Shown one piece after another: positions 270 through 12,888 of a stretch of DNA of 24,279 nucleotides. Both the position numbers and the translations under genes were made by a program. Under the pieces are notes generated by a model. That model was not told the DNA's origin and did no database searches. It saw nothing but the letters and a program-made list of their open reading frames with translations. Source of the DNA: a virus; the IMG/VR virus record IMGVR_UViG_3300009124_000103, positions 1 through 24,279 of that record. One strand, given 5' to 3'. How positions within the stretch are numbered: position 1 is the stretch's first letter; each line of letters starts with the position of its first letter.

Positions 270-569
270 TTATTTGTTTAGTTTAAAAAATTTATTATTT
301 TCTTTTTGTGTAACTTCTTGATATTCTTGATCTAAGTTGTTCCACATTTGACCACCTTCCCAAATACCATCTTTCCAAATACCATATTCCCAAATACCAT
401 CTTTCCAAATACCATCTTTCCAAGTGCCACCTTTCCAAGTACCATTTTCCCAAGTTATATATGGCCCTTTATCACAAATAATTGCATTTCGGAAATCTGC
501 ATCTTTAAGCCACGGATATTTTTTTTCTAAATCTTCTTTATTTGAGTTTATTATTTTCTTATATTTCAT
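270..569 (-). CDS. WxxGx pentapeptide-repeat protein
   Basis: A 99-residue protein whose residues 40-73 are seven consecutive five-residue units of the form W-[EK]-x-G-[TI] (WENGT, WKGGT, WKDGI, WKDGI, WEYGI, WKDGI, WEGG). The N-terminal 39 residues (with YPWLKDADFRNAIICDKGPYI) and the lysine-rich tail are not repeated. Tandem W/G pentapeptides of this type are expected to form a regular beta solenoid, by analogy with other pentapeptide repeats, and recur in phage and bacterial proteins of unknown role. No enzymatic motif or signal peptide is visible. The ATG at 569 follows an AATAAATAAAT run with no Shine-Dalgarno. It lies between the ribbon-helix-helix-like gene and the truncated gene. Confidence 0.8.
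   Translation of the reverse strand: MKYKKIINSNKEDLEKKYPWLKDADFRNAIICDKGPYITWENGTWKGGTWKDGIWKDGIWEYGIWKDGIWEGGQMWNNLDQEYQEVTQKENNKFFKLNK
351..452 (-). repeat. 15-bp coding tandem repeat (seven units)
   Basis: On the plus strand a unit such as ttcccaaataccatc or tttccaaataccatc recurs about seven times with a strict 15-bp period. It encodes the WxxGx pentapeptides of the overlapping leftward gene. Neighbouring copies are nearly identical at the DNA level, so copy number could change by slippage in steps of five residues without breaking the frame. Confidence 0.9.
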
Positions 570-1310: not shown

Positions 1311-1340
1311 TTGACTATAAAATAATAATAAGTTTATTAT
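1311..1340 (+). promoter_or_regulatory. Sigma70-type promoter for the structured-RNA region
   Basis: TTGACT (1311-1316), an 18-bp spacer and TATTAT (1335-1340), or TTATTA at 17 bp. This is one of the best rightward promoter matches in the window. It is followed within about 10 bp by the start of a region dense in complementary segments and without ORFs, so the likely product is an RNA starting near 1346. Confidence 0.65.
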
Positions 1341-1735
1341 CTTTTTAGCTGTCTGATCCACAGTCCTTTCTTATGAAAGCCTATTAGTATAAACACTTTA
1401 GGAGCGGTAGAAATATCGCTTCTATTTTTTTACAAGGCTGTAGTAATTAAGAATAAATAGCGTTTATATTAATATGGTTAGCAAATCAAAATAAGTAACC
1501 GTCGAGTTCTAGTGGTAGAAATACGATAAACTTACTCAAGATTAATATATAGCTCCTTAACTGATCACTAAGTTCTGTTTGCAAAGTGAAATAAAACCCT
1601 CTGCGTGGTCGTGCATTTGGCTTTAGAGGGAAAAAGTGGAGGTAATACTCCGACTGCTAGTATTTTAAGGGTTCAGAAGTTCTATTATAGAAAGGAGTTC
1701 GCTAGCCTGCCTGTTTTATGTTATTTGTGAAAATT
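1341..1735 (+). ncRNA. Candidate large structured non-coding RNA
   Basis: There is no plausible gene here, but many helices can be drawn. ACAGTC (1360-1365) pairs with GGCTGT (1436-1441), enclosing hairpins CTTTC/GAAAG (1366-1379) and AGGAGCG/CGCTTCT (1400-1423). Further on: GGTTA/TAACC (1476-1500), AGTAA/TTACT (1494-1536) enclosing TTCTA-gtgg-TAGAA (1507-1520), CCCTCT/AGAGGG (1597-1630), GGAG/CTCC (1638-1651), and GCTAG/CTAGC (1656-1706) enclosing TTCTA-tta-TAGAA (1680-1692). AACCCT (1595-1600) could instead pair with AGGGTT (1668-1673), an alternative or tertiary contact. The region looks richer in G and C than its flanks and starts at a good promoter. Size and phage context recall the GOLLD and ROOL classes of large phage RNAs, but I cannot assign it to either from sequence alone. 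The 3' end is uncertain and could extend to about 1830. Confidence 0.6.
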
Positions 1736-3051: not shown

Positions 3052-3628
3052 TTTAACAGCTTTTCCACTTACTGCTAAGAAACTAAGTGAACTGGCTAGT
3101 AAATCAACACTAGCAGGGACTGAAGTTTTACAAATTGTTGATTCTGGAACAAATAAAAAAACTACTGTTGCTGATATTAATAGTTATGTTGATGAGCAAT
3201 CAAAAGGACTAGCTCAATATTATATGGTTGGTAATTCAACAGCTACAACAATAAGCGCAACATCAACTTTTTATAAAATAGCTGGAACAACAAGCCAAGG
3301 CATAACTCCAGATAATTTTACTTTGGCAGACAACAAAGCAACTTTCACTGGTAGTGCTTCAACTAACTTTAAAGTTACTGCTGTTTTATCTTTAACTGCT
3401 GGCAATAATCAAGATATTGACTTAAGAATTGCAAAGAATGGCACGACTCAAGCAAGAAGCCATCAAGAAGTTACAACAAGTGGCAGTGGTTCGGCTCAAA
3501 ATATAGTAGTCAAAGATATATTTACATTAACAACTAATGACTATATTGAGTTGTTTGTTGCTAACAATACAAGCACAACTAACATTACAGTAATTGATCT
3601 AAATGTTATCATTGAGAAATTGCACTAA
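3041..3628 (+). CDS. Putative fibre or decoration protein with beta-sandwich C-terminus
   Basis: A 195-residue protein. Residues 1-60 (LTAFPLTAKKLSELASKST...GTEVLQIVDSGTNKKTTVADINSYV) resemble the linker segments of phage fibres that say an item is active or checked through a per-feature list. Residues 60-195 are rich in Thr, Ser, Asn and beta-strand patterns (TFYKIAGTTS, KATFTGSASTNFKVTAVLSLTAG, DIDLRIAKNGT, VVKDIFTLTTNDYIELFVANNTS), like the C1q/TNF-type jelly rolls found at the tips of phage head and tail fibres. It sits between the two terminase genes rather than with the tail fibre, which suggests a head-attached fibre. The stop overlaps the large terminase start (TAATG). The fold assignment is by pattern only. 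Confidence 0.55.
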   Translation: MASNLTAFPLTAKKLSELASKSTLAGTEVLQIVDSGTNKKTTVADINSYVDEQSKGLAQYYMVGNSTATTISATSTFYKIAGTTSQGITPDNFTLADNKATFTGSASTNFKVTAVLSLTAGNNQDIDLRIAKNGTTQARSHQEVTTSGSGSAQNIVVKDIFTLTTNDYIELFVANNTSTTNITVIDLNVIIEKLH

Positions 3629-4929
3629 TGCAAATAACAATACCATATAATTGGGAGCCTAGAGACTATCAAAAAGCTCTTTGGAAAGCTCTTACAATAG
3701 ACAACTTCAATCGTGCTATTTATGTCTGGCACAGAAGGGCAGGCAAAGACTTATTCGGTTTAAATCTTATCATCTTTTCGGCCATTACTAAAACAGCTGG
3801 CACCTACTGGCATATCTTCCCGACTTACAACCAAGGCAAGAAAGCTATTTGGTCAGAAAGTGATATCACAGGCAGAAAATATCTTGATTATATACCAAAA
3901 GAGATAATCAAGTCTATTAACCAACAGGAAATGAAGATTGAGTTTATAAACGGCTCAGTTTATCAAATTGTCGGTTCTGATAATGTAGATGCTTTAAGGG
4001 GTGCGGGAATTAAAGGGGCAGTATTTAGTGAATATGCAGAACAAAGACCAACAGCATGGGAAGTAATACAACCAATGTTGATGGCCACTAATGGCTGGGC
4101 ATTATTTAACTTTACACCAAAGGGTCATAATCACGCCTATGAATTGTGGGAAATGGCTAAGAAAAATGATAATTGGTTTAGTCAATTGCTAACTGTTGAA
4201 GATACTAAGCAACAAGTATTTACTAACGAACAAATAGAACAAATTAAACAAGAGTTTATACAAAGGGGCAAAACCTTGGACTTATTCAATCAAGAATATT
4301 ATTGTAGTTTTAACAATGCTATTGAAGGGGCTTATTATTCTCAACAACTAGCAAGGACTAAAGAAGAAGGAAGGGTAACTAGCTTACCTTATGAAAGCAA
4401 TTTATTGGTAGATACTTGGTGGGATTTGGGAGTAAATGACACAACCGCTATTTGGTTTACTCAACAATATGGTAATGAAATAAGAATAATAGACTATTTG
4501 GAAGATAGCGGGCAAGGTTTAGATTATTACATAAAAGAATTAAAGGCAAAACCTTATATTTACAACACTCACAACGCACCGCACGATATAAGAGTAAGAG
4601 AATTTACAAGCGGTAGATCAAGATATGATATAGCTTGGGACTTAGGAATTAAATTTGATGTAGTGCCTAATATACCAATTGTTGATGGCATCAATGCAGT
4701 AAGGGCTTTATTTAACAAATGTATATTTGATGAAGATAAATGTAAAAAAGGACTACTAGCTTTGCAAAACTATAAAAAACAGTTTGACGAAATAAGAAAT
4801 TGTTTTAAAGATAAACCATTACACGATTGGTCAAGTAATGGGTCTGATGCTTTTAGATACTTAGCAGTCGGCATTGATGAGAAAAGATTTATTAAAAATA
4901 GTCAAACTTATGACTACGCATTAACTTAA
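3628..4929 (+). CDS. terL: Terminase large subunit (packaging ATPase and nuclease)
   Basis: A 433-residue protein with both terminase domains. ATPase: a Walker A variant, HRRAGKD, at residues 35-41, and Walker B VFSEYA at 132-137, with E135 as likely catalytic glutamate. The segment LRGAGIKG just before it is typical. RNase H-like nuclease: an acidic strand VDTWWDLGVNDTTAIWF near residue 260, IIDYLEDSGQ near 288, and the final DWSSNGSDAFRYLAVG near 403, which supplies the last metal-binding aspartate. It pumps DNA into the prohead through the portal ring and cuts the concatemer. Length is somewhat shorter than many relatives but both domains look complete. It starts within the stop of the preceding gene. 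Confidence 0.95.
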   Translation: MQITIPYNWEPRDYQKALWKALTIDNFNRAIYVWHRRAGKDLFGLNLIIFSAITKTAGTYWHIFPTYNQGKKAIWSESDITGRKYLDYIPKEIIKSINQQEMKIEFINGSVYQIVGSDNVDALRGAGIKGAVFSEYAEQRPTAWEVIQPMLMATNGWALFNFTPKGHNHAYELWEMAKKNDNWFSQLLTVEDTKQQVFTNEQIEQIKQEFIQRGKTLDLFNQEYYCSFNNAIEGAYYSQQLARTKEEGRVTSLPYESNLLVDTWWDLGVNDTTAIWFTQQYGNEIRIIDYLEDSGQGLDYYIKELKAKPYIYNTHNAPHDIRVREFTSGRSRYDIAWDLGIKFDVVPNIPIVDGINAVRALFNKCIFDEDKCKKGLLALQNYKKQFDEIRNCFKDKPLHDWSSNGSDAFRYLAVGIDEKRFIKNSQTYDYALT

Positions 4930-10357: not shown

Positions 10358-12888
10358 TGCCAAGAGTATCTGAAATAAGAACAAACTTTAATGCTGGCGA
10401 GCTATCAACCCTTGTAAACGCACGAACACAATTTGAAAGATACTTTAACGGCTCTGAAACAATACAAAACTTTGTTACTTTAGTACAGGGTTTATTAATC
10501 AGAAGAAAAGGCTTTAGATTCATAGGAGAAGCCAAATACTCAACTAAAAAAGCTAGATTAATCCGTTTTGAATTTAGCACAGTTCAAACTTATGCAATAG
10601 AATTAGGAGAGGGCTATTTACGCTTTTATTCTCAACAAGGAAGAGTTTTAGACAATTCAACAACAATCACTGGCGCAACAAATGCTAACCCTGTTGTAAT
10701 TACTGATACTGGACACCCTTATTCTGATGGCGATGAAATCATTATCCAAAATGTTGGAGGAATGACTGAGATAAACAATAAGAAGTTTACAGTAGCCAAT
10801 AAAACAGCCAATACTTATGAATTAGCAGGAATAGACGGCACAAGCTATGGAACATATACAAGTGGAGGCACAGCTTCAAGAATACACGAAATAACTTGCC
10901 CTTATTTAGAAAGCGATTTATTTGATGTTAAATTCGTGCAAGATAGTGATGTAGTTTATTTTATCCACCCTAACTACCCTATACAAAAACTAATTAGAAC
11001 AAGTATAAACGCATTTACTTTAAGTGAAGTAGAGCTTGTCAAAGGTCCATATGTTGATGAGAATATAATAGCAACTGATCTAGTAACCATAACTGGTGGC
11101 GCACCTTGGACGGAAGGCTCAACATTAACCCTAACCGCCAGCGGAGGACATACTCCTTTTACTAGCGACCATGTAGGCGGATTATGGAAAGTTAGAAGTG
11201 GGACTGATATTGCCCATCTTAAAATAACTGGATTCACAAGCTCAACAGTAGTTACAGTTGAAGCAATGAACGATGTCCCTGCTAGCTTACAAGGAACAGC
11301 CAAATTTACTTGGTCGGAAGGTGAATTTAGTGATGCTCGTAGTTATGCAGGGGCAATTGCTTTTCACGAACAAAGAATGATTCTTGCTGGAAGTGCCAAT
11401 GCACCGCAAAGGATATGGTTTTCTAACTCAAATGCTGATTATGAAAATTTTGAAGCAGGTATTGAAGATGATGACCCTTTTATAATTAAAATAGCTTCAC
11501 AAAAGGGCGACCCTATAAGATGGTTATTCTCTGACCAAGTTTTATTTGTAGGTACTAGTGGCTCAATATTTAGAATTAAAAACTCGGCTAACAGCTCGGC
11601 AATAACTCCGACTGATATTGATGTTAAGAAACATATTGCTTATGGTAGTGCTAATATTCAACCAGAAGCAGTAGGTGAAGTGCCTATTTATATTCAAAAG
11701 AATAATCAAACAGTAAGGGCTATTAGTTTTAGTATTGATAGCGATAAATACAAAGCAGTTGACATAACAACCGATAGCGACCATATAACAGGAACAGGGG
11801 TAACTAGCCTTGAATATCAACAAATCCCTTTATCTTGCTTATGGGCAATAAGAGAAGATGGACAAATAGCAAGATTAGTATTAGAAACCGATCAACAAGT
11901 GCAAGCTTGGTCAAGATATGTTACTCAAGGAACTTTTGAAACAGTGGCAGTGGTTAGTGATGCACAAGATAATGACGAGATATATTCTATTGTAAAAAGA
12001 ACAATTAACGGCGTAACTAAACGCTTTGTAGAGGTTCAAGAGCCTAATTATTTAGTAGATGATTTAAACGGCTTATTTTTAGACTCTAGTTTAACATATA
12101 ACGGCACACAATCAACAACTTTAACTTTAACTGATGTTTTAGGTTCATCGGTTTTATTAACTGAAGATGGCGATGTTTTACTTACTGAAAGTGGCGATGT
12201 TTTATTAACTGAAGATGTACCCGTTACAATTACATCTGATATTGATGTATTTAGCAGTGATGATGTAGGCAAAGAAATTCATCAATTAAGAGATTATGGC
12301 AGTGGGAAAGCTTTAATAACTGGCTTTACTGATGCTAAAACAATAACAGTAACAATAATAGAAAAATTTAATTCAACTACTTTAAACCCTAACGAGTGGG
12401 CAATAGCAATCAAAACAGTAACTGGATTAGATCATTTAGAGGGTGAGGTTGTTAATATATCGTCTGATGGTGCAACACTGCCAGTTGAAACAGTAGCCAA
12501 TGGTCAAATAACTATTGACACGGCAGGGGCTATAGTTCATGTTGGTTTGCTATATACTTCAATTCAAAAGAATATGCCAATTGAAGCAACCGCTTTATCT
12601 AGTATTTTAGGAACATCACAACATAAAGATAAAAGAATAGATGGGGTTGTAATTAAATTCGATAAAACAAGGGGTGGTAAAATTATCACTGATAATGAAA
12701 CTATCCCTATACCTGCAAGAAGTTTTGCAGATAAAATGAACGAAGTACCTGCTTTATTTAGTGGGGATAAGGAAGTAACAATTGCTACTGGCTGGGATAA
12801 GTACGGACAAATACAAATAATCCAAGACGAGCCCCAGCCTATGAGTATTAAAAGTATTACTTATAAAGTAACTGTAAATGATAAATGA
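10357..12888 (+). CDS. Tail tubular protein B-like (tail nozzle, T7 gp12-like)
   Basis: An 843-residue, beta-rich protein. The N-terminus (VSEIRTNFNAGELSTLVNAR, FERYFNGSETIQNFVTLVQG, RRKGFRFIGEAKYSTKKARLI) is the characteristic opening of podovirus nozzle proteins. Later segments, FHEQRMILAGSANAPQRIWF and DGQIARLVLETDQQVQAWSR, are typical of the same family. Six copies would form the distal tail tube that opens on ejection. At about residues 599-621 there is an inserted short repeat VLLTE[DS]GD, two and a half copies. The gene overlaps the next by four bases (ATGA). Confidence 0.9.
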   Translation: MPRVSEIRTNFNAGELSTLVNARTQFERYFNGSETIQNFVTLVQGLLIRRKGFRFIGEAKYSTKKARLIRFEFSTVQTYAIELGEGYLRFYSQQGRVLDNSTTITGATNANPVVITDTGHPYSDGDEIIIQNVGGMTEINNKKFTVANKTANTYELAGIDGTSYGTYTSGGTASRIHEITCPYLESDLFDVKFVQDSDVVYFIHPNYPIQKLIRTSINAFTLSEVELVKGPYVDENIIATDLVTITGGAPWTEGSTLTLTASGGHTPFTSDHVGGLWKVRSGTDIAHLKITGFTSSTVVTVEAMNDVPASLQGTAKFTWSEGEFSDARSYAGAIAFHEQRMILAGSANAPQRIWFSNSNADYENFEAGIEDDDPFIIKIASQKGDPIRWLFSDQVLFVGTSGSIFRIKNSANSSAITPTDIDVKKHIAYGSANIQPEAVGEVPIYIQKNNQTVRAISFSIDSDKYKAVDITTDSDHITGTGVTSLEYQQIPLSCLWAIREDGQIARLVLETDQQVQAWSRYVTQGTFETVAVVSDAQDNDEIYSIVKRTINGVTKRFVEVQEPNYLVDDLNGLFLDSSLTYNGTQSTTLTLTDVLGSSVLLTEDGDVLLTESGDVLLTEDVPVTITSDIDVFSSDDVGKEIHQLRDYGSGKALITGFTDAKTITVTIIEKFNSTTLNPNEWAIAIKTVTGLDHLEGEVVNISSDGATLPVETVANGQITIDTAGAIVHVGLLYTSIQKNMPIEATALSSILGTSQHKDKRIDGVVIKFDKTRGGKIITDNETIPIPARSFADKMNEVPALFSGDKEVTIATGWDKYGQIQIIQDEPQPMSIKSITYKVTVNDK
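12151..12217 (+). repeat. 24-bp in-frame tandem repeat in the nozzle gene
   Basis: gttttattaactgaagatgg followed by cgat (12151-12174) is repeated at 12175-12198 with four changes, and partly at 12199-12217. It encodes VLLTEDGD, VLLTESGD, VLLTED. The third copy is closer to the first than to the second, which suggests slippage or gene conversion. Confidence 0.85.

Follow-up and report, generated by a model that had tools for sequence, protein, structure and literature searches.

A conserved structured RNA beside the terminase genes of three otherwise unrelated tailed phages

The locus and its genes

The DNA analyzed here (the window) is a 24,279-base phage fragment, IMG/VR record IMGVR_UViG_3300009124_000103, that carries podovirus genes for a head-tail connector, capsid, tail tube and internal virion protein; its capsid and tail are closest to those of pelagiphages (33-40% identity). 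Small leftward genes lie on one side of a non-coding gap and a rightward gene run on the other, in which a 60-aa ORF, a 71-aa ORF, the terminase small subunit gene (terS) and, further on, the large subunit gene (terL) all share one strand. The main features are as follows.

1311-1340, + strand: sigma70-type promoter TTGACT-18-TATTAT, 10 of 12 consensus positions matching
1347-1862, + strand: the whole structured RNA, about 515 nt, its start placed from the promoter and helix P1 and its end from the limit of conservation
2421-2831, + strand: terminase small subunit gene (Pfam Sf6_terminase, phrog_1482), 0.56 kb downstream of the RNA
3628-4929, + strand: terminase large subunit gene (phrog_2)

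Elsewhere in the window, positions 1-52 are an artefact of the contig end and consist of Illumina P5/Nextera adapter (cgagatctacac...tcgtcggcagcgtcagatgtgtataagagacag); a small leftward ORF at 270-569 (- strand) has tandem W(K/E)xGxW repeats and resembles a MORN-like repeat protein; and a short direct repeat, acagtaattacgataattaa, occurs in near-perfect copies between two small ORFs at 2061-2110.

An earlier note on this DNA had proposed a large structured phage RNA at 1311-1735, led into by a sigma70-type promoter. The promoter is present, but the element reaches to about 1862, the 3' limit of conservation (at AAUCUAAAAGCAUAAC), and thus comprises the stretch first marked plus about 130 nt further downstream. 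Promoter-like sites lie at the equivalent place in both homologues described below, TTGACA-16-TAAAAT in L118 and a TTGAGT/TATATA-like site, judged by eye, in L153. Because P1 begins 7-10 nt past the -10 box in all three phages, the RNA should start at about 1347.

Homologues and their genomic settings

A first scan of viral contigs with the pattern GGTCGTGCATTTGGC returned 77 loci, mostly chance matches, of which one, L118, was real. It is 72.7% identical to the window RNA over 1489-1862; 5' of 1489 the two align poorly at the DNA level, yet hairpins are found at the same places. A second scan, with the P8 pattern GTGGAGGTNNTNCTCCGAC, gave L153, L159, L168, L169 and L167, contigs of five metagenomes with one identical RNA sequence in the compared stretch. 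L153 is 72% identical to the window over 1297-1867, promoter included. The comparative set consists of three distinct sequences only (the window, L118 and L153).

Other searches returned no further copies. Patterns CCAATCTAAAAGCATAA and GCGACAACTCAAAAGC / GCGANAACTCAAAAGCAT recovered known copies only, and GTGAAATAAAACC...GGCTTT recovered zero new ones. BLAST searches of phage records with the window RNA, and of phage and plasmid records with the L153 RNA, gave only short terminator-like or AT-rich matches. An exact pattern found no copy in bacterial genomes, and about 1,200 scanned genomes yielded none, their few matches being the P3 or P12 hairpin alone. The RNA is also absent from the closest relatives by window terminase (L002-L005, 79-84% identical).

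At the DNA level the homologues resemble the window in the RNA alone; at the protein level, only the small and large terminases show any likeness, and it is weak. The portal families differ (Head-tail_con in the window, Phage_portal in L118, Phage_portal_3 in L153), and the L153 phage also encodes a DUF3383 protein, which we take to belong to the contractile-tail sheath family. The RNA occurs in podo-, sipho- and myovirus-like phages that have no other detected proteins in common than the weakly similar terminases, a pattern that implies selection to keep it across unrelated phages.

The order in L118 is RNA, HNH gene, small ORF, terS, terL. In L153 and L168 the portal gene comes first, then the inverted RNA, a 54-aa ORF preceded by a promoter of its own, and an oppositely directed terL, with the RNA on the + strand and terminase and portal on the - strand. 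The ORF that follows the RNA thus differs between phages: 60 aa without an assigned family in the window, an HNH gene in L118, and 54 aa without an assigned family in L153. The L153 ORF is preceded by a strong, near-consensus promoter, TTGACA-17-TATACT, at 12588-12616; lying directly after the RNA (12588-12810, no family match), this ORF and promoter may travel with the RNA there. No tRNA was found in the window or at the homologous loci.

Small terminase subunits of all three RNA-carrying phages match phrog_4102. In L003, which has no RNA, the large terminase is 84% identical to that of the window and the small subunit belongs to phrog_606 (L003 1897-2274). Large subunits that are 84% identical are therefore paired with different small-subunit families (phrog_1482/4102 in the window at 2421-2831, phrog_606 in L003), and the RNA accompanies the former.

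Shine-Dalgarno-like sites precede 3 of 27 window genes (2421-23266), none of 5 in L118 and 1 of 18 in L153. As such sites are nearly absent in all three carriers, these phages may have in common a type of host that does not use Shine-Dalgarno sequences. Pelagibacter as host was considered and set aside: the Pelagibacter phage HTVC010P lacks the RNA and has such sites before 17 of its 33 genes, compared with 3 of 27 in the window.

Evidence for a conserved structured RNA

Each of the six frames in each of the three sequences contains 9 to 20 stops, and no open frame conserved across the homologues was found, which agrees with the earlier observation that the region holds no plausible gene; a conserved reading frame had been named there as a finding that would speak against an RNA. 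Folding of the window alone left the matter undecided (1346-1735, z -1.61, 7 of 100 shuffles equally good), so the single-sequence evidence was weak and the claim was decided by comparative data. When the three sequences were aligned by sequence only with MAFFT, the consensus fold had an energy of -198, whereas alignments with shuffled columns gave -145 +/- 7 (z -7.6, none of 100 as good). The reverse-strand alignment gave z -5.7, which favors the promoter strand.

Compensatory changes point the same way. A test for hairpins present in all three sequences, applied to segments between conserved anchors, gave a combined p of 5e-12 over ten segments, with P5, P6 and the outer P9 stem not significant when taken singly. 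A structure-guided tally of 92 pairs, which leans towards structure because the helices were placed by eye, contained 41 two-sided compensatory pairs and 10 pairs changed on one side; 39 pairs were invariant and 2 included a mispair. In the plain MAFFT alignment A2, without P1-P4 and PK2, 94% of cells were paired; the 62 named pairs of its 3' part, also picked after inspection of the same sequences, showed 19 two-sided changes, against 7.4 with shuffled partners and 1-3 with the partner slid by 1-3 columns. The covariation across homologous phage contigs that the earlier note had proposed to look for is thus strong and supports its central proposal of a large structured phage non-coding RNA, and we are close to certain that positions 1347-1862 are a conserved structured RNA.

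Helices, pseudoknots and loop contacts

The elements of the fold, all on the + strand, are given below in window coordinates; tertiary contacts were sought by an exhaustive scan for complementary column stretches.

1349-1363, +: P1 hairpin CTGT/ACAG (CTGG/CCAG in L153, ACGG/CCGT in L118), 3 of 4 pairs compensatory
1354-1358, +: P1 loop UGAUC, complementary to the P6 loop
1366-1379, +: P2 hairpin, position kept in all three, sequence different
1403-1431, +: P3 hairpin with a GAAA tetraloop, then a U-run (GCAA tetraloop in L153; GGAGT/ACTCC in L118)
1476-1500, +: P4 hairpin GGTTA/TAACC (AACCA/TGGTT and GCCCA/TGGGC in the homologues), 4 of 5 pairs compensatory
1482-1581, +: pseudoknot PK2, 5 bp, P4 loop 1482-1486 with 1577-1581, 3 compensatory pairs
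1504-1537, +: P5a GAGT/ACTC, with a small hairpin P5b inside and conserved TTCTAGTG...GATAAACTT
1556-1572, +: P6 hairpin, loop GAUCA (1563-1567), with a C-G to G-C change in L118
1584-1598, +: invariant segment AAGTGAAATAAAACC, mostly unpaired, identical in all three
1597-1630, +: P7 stem with a conserved 22-nt loop, GCGUGGUCGUGCAUUUGGCUUU
1612-1756, +: pseudoknot PK1, 9 bp, P7 loop 1612-1620 (UGCAUUUGG) with 1748-1756 (CUAAAUGCA), 4 compensatory pairs
1638-1651, +: P8 hairpin GGAG-GUNAUN-CUCC, stem invariant, the pattern that found L153
1656-1706, +: P9 domain GCTAG/CTAGC, with invariant TTCAGAAGT and hairpin P9b (1680-1692) inside, both stems covarying in all three
1713-1744, +: P10 hairpin GUUUUAUG.../...CAUAAAAU, 3 compensatory pairs
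1798-1831, +: P12 hairpin, 2 compensatory A-U/U-A exchanges, z -4.0 for that part of the alignment
1832-1862, +: conserved 3' tail GCGUC...AAUCUAAAAGCAUAAC, its final 14 bases (TCTAAAAGCATAAC) identical in all three

Several of these helices had been proposed from the window alone. The 3' domain closed by GCTAG/CTAGC covaries, being GTGATT/AATCAC in L153 and GTTG/CAAC in L118. Of a closed multibranch domain at 1360-1441, the hairpins P1, P2 and P3 were borne out, but the closing stem was not seen in the homologues. Mutually exclusive pairings had been suggested for a CCCT segment; a single pairing is conserved, with AGGG at 1627-1630, and a CCCT switch is therefore unsupported. P12 is best regarded as a helix and not a terminator, because L118 interrupts its U-run by a compensated A-U to U-A exchange. 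In the 3' part of the RNA (1757-1862) the element TTTTGTTAATGG..TTGCG..C..(T)CNAAAAGCATA occurs twice, in the window and in the homologues, possibly an internal duplication with the second AAAAGCAT copy at the 3' end.

Both pseudoknots are supported by strand replacement. In L153, UAUGCUUGG/CUAAGCAUA take the place of the window strands of PK1, with 4 of 9 pairs changed on both sides, and PK1 had no equal in 100 shuffled alignments; PK2 is CAAAU/GUUUG, compared with UCAUC/GAUGA in L118. Four helices reached 5 bp or more with 3 or more compensatory pairs, against 0.05 expected (mean of 100 shuffled alignments). A third, weaker contact pairs the loops of P1 (1354-1358) and P6 (1563-1567) and has 2 compensatory pairs; by itself it is within chance (expectation for its class 0.48).

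The cores of the P1 and P6 loops are also self-complementary, GAUC in the window and L153 and AAUU in L118, and in OLE and GOLLD such exchanges of one palindrome for another are a sign of contacts between molecules (PMC12286853). Because of this resemblance, assembly of the RNA into multimers through its self-complementary loops is a fair hypothesis, drawn solely from loop complementarity.

The fold also bears on whether this stretch might act as DNA, as a packaging or recombination site made of inverted repeats. Inverted repeats are many and terminase genes are adjacent, as such a site would have them, but the transcribed strand gives the stronger fold signal (z -7.6 versus -5.7), and the two pseudoknots, the promoter ending where the first helix begins and the 515 nt of folded sequence are features of an RNA. 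We regard a DNA-level site as exceedingly improbable.

Proposed role and alternatives

Across the three phages the RNA, its promoter and a terminase nearby are constant, and orientation and the next gene vary. Constancy of RNA and promoter amid this variation supports a product that acts on its own, and our preferred reading, to which we assign a probability of about 0.55, is a stand-alone, trans-acting large phage RNA of a new family, similar in kind to GOLLD and ROOL, for which any function is proposed only. The promoter at 1311-1340 would drive an RNA of about 515 nt, probably transcribed as one molecule, whose fold of at least twelve helices is held together by two pseudoknots and perhaps by a loop-loop contact. 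A compact RNA, or an RNA-protein particle, it would most likely act in trans during infection, as large "ornate" phage RNAs may do, and it would pass from phage to phage as an accessory cassette that brings its promoter along (a "moron").

The main alternative is an RNA associated with packaging, which would work with the terminase, for example by forming a scaffold or a ring as phi29 pRNA does, or engage the small subunit. Terminase genes adjoin the RNA in all three phages, in different arrangements; the phrog_4102 small subunit is present in all three carriers and replaced by phrog_606 in the RNA-less L003; and the P1 and P6 loops covary and are complementary, as are the two interlocking loops of pRNA. 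However, the three large terminase subunits hardly resemble one another, terminases of these families to our knowledge function without RNA, a comparison of three phages with one is only a lead, and the region next to terminase genes is also a common insertion site for genes. These points make a packaging role rather unlikely. A bolder version, in which a new class of large RNA forms a multimer through its P1/P6 loops and serves packaging in otherwise unrelated tailed phages, as a second and independent kind of packaging RNA, is more doubtful again.

The RNA might instead be the 5' leader of the downstream operon and control the late genes, for example by put/EAR-like antitermination in which P3 would be the terminator that has to be read through. 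The gene run into terS and terL follows the RNA directly, in the same orientation, in the window and L118; the next ORF begins about 20 nt past the conserved end, and no terminator was found after that end, which together are compatible with a leader in these two phages. P3 with its U-run is terminator-like in the window and, by eye, in L153, and could stop transcription early. A leader should lie on the same strand and directly upstream of the operon in all members, but in L153 and L168 the RNA is directed away from the late operon, and its sole downstream gene has its own promoter, which makes a late-operon leader unlikely. The downstream genes are moreover unrelated, the most conserved part of the RNA lies 3' of P3, and the P3 U-run is weak in L118. 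Our estimate for this explanation falls slightly below that for a packaging role.

An intron, ribozyme or mobile-element RNA (group I or II intron, omega-RNA) would account for the HNH gene that follows the RNA in L118 and for the presence of the RNA in unrelated phages. Against this, no Rfam intron, ribozyme or HEARO-type match was found, no gene is interrupted, and the HNH gene is missing beside the other two copies; we consider it very improbable. The stand-alone, trans-acting RNA thus remains our preferred explanation.

Comparison with known RNA classes

The RNA was compared with the 4,227 models of Rfam 15 at gathering and permissive thresholds, the permissive scans covering all three homologues. 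No family matched; only chance-level matches appeared, permissive scans included, and the models for GOLLD, ROOL, phi29 pRNA, introns, ribozymes and HEARO found no match in the three sequences. Literature searches found no earlier description of the RNA. The earlier note had offered GOLLD, ROOL or a new class: the Rfam result argues for the last and against the two named families.

The number of large structured RNAs known from bacteria and phages is very small, and this RNA adds another. GOLLD, ROOL and OLE have drawn wide attention through the puzzle of what they do and because two of the three assemble into RNA cages. For the RNA described here, sequence comparison supports the fold, both pseudoknots show compensatory changes and the start is clear; its position beside the terminase genes offers a direct test of what large phage RNAs do.

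Among known systems, phi29 pRNA is a phage RNA of about 174 nt, a component of the packaging motor, encoded near packaging genes, with complementary loops able to link molecules. Our RNA shares the proximity to packaging genes and the complementary loops, but has no Rfam match to pRNA, and the terminases here are not of the phi29 type. Antitermination leaders of the put/EAR type are RNAs that open a phage or operon transcript and have a terminator-like hairpin nearby; they are shorter than this RNA, and unlike them the L153 RNA is opposite in strand to the late operon. GOLLD exceeds 800 nt, is often found near tRNA genes and has marine samples among its sources (PMC12286853). It forms a homo-oligomeric nanocage. 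Like GOLLD, the RNA reported here is a large, elaborate, phage-encoded non-coding RNA with pseudoknots and comes from marine samples; unlike GOLLD, it measures about 515 nt, has no covariance-model match and has no tRNA near any copy. ROOL is a large ornate RNA of phages and prophages with pseudoknots and no known protein partner (PMC12286853). The RNA in these phages resembles it as an elaborate fold with several pseudoknots (PK1 and PK2), and differs from it in sequence, in matching no model and in having no tRNA island nearby. As far as Rfam 15 and the literature searches reach, then, the family is new, and it belongs to a kind, the large ornate phage RNA, that is already known.
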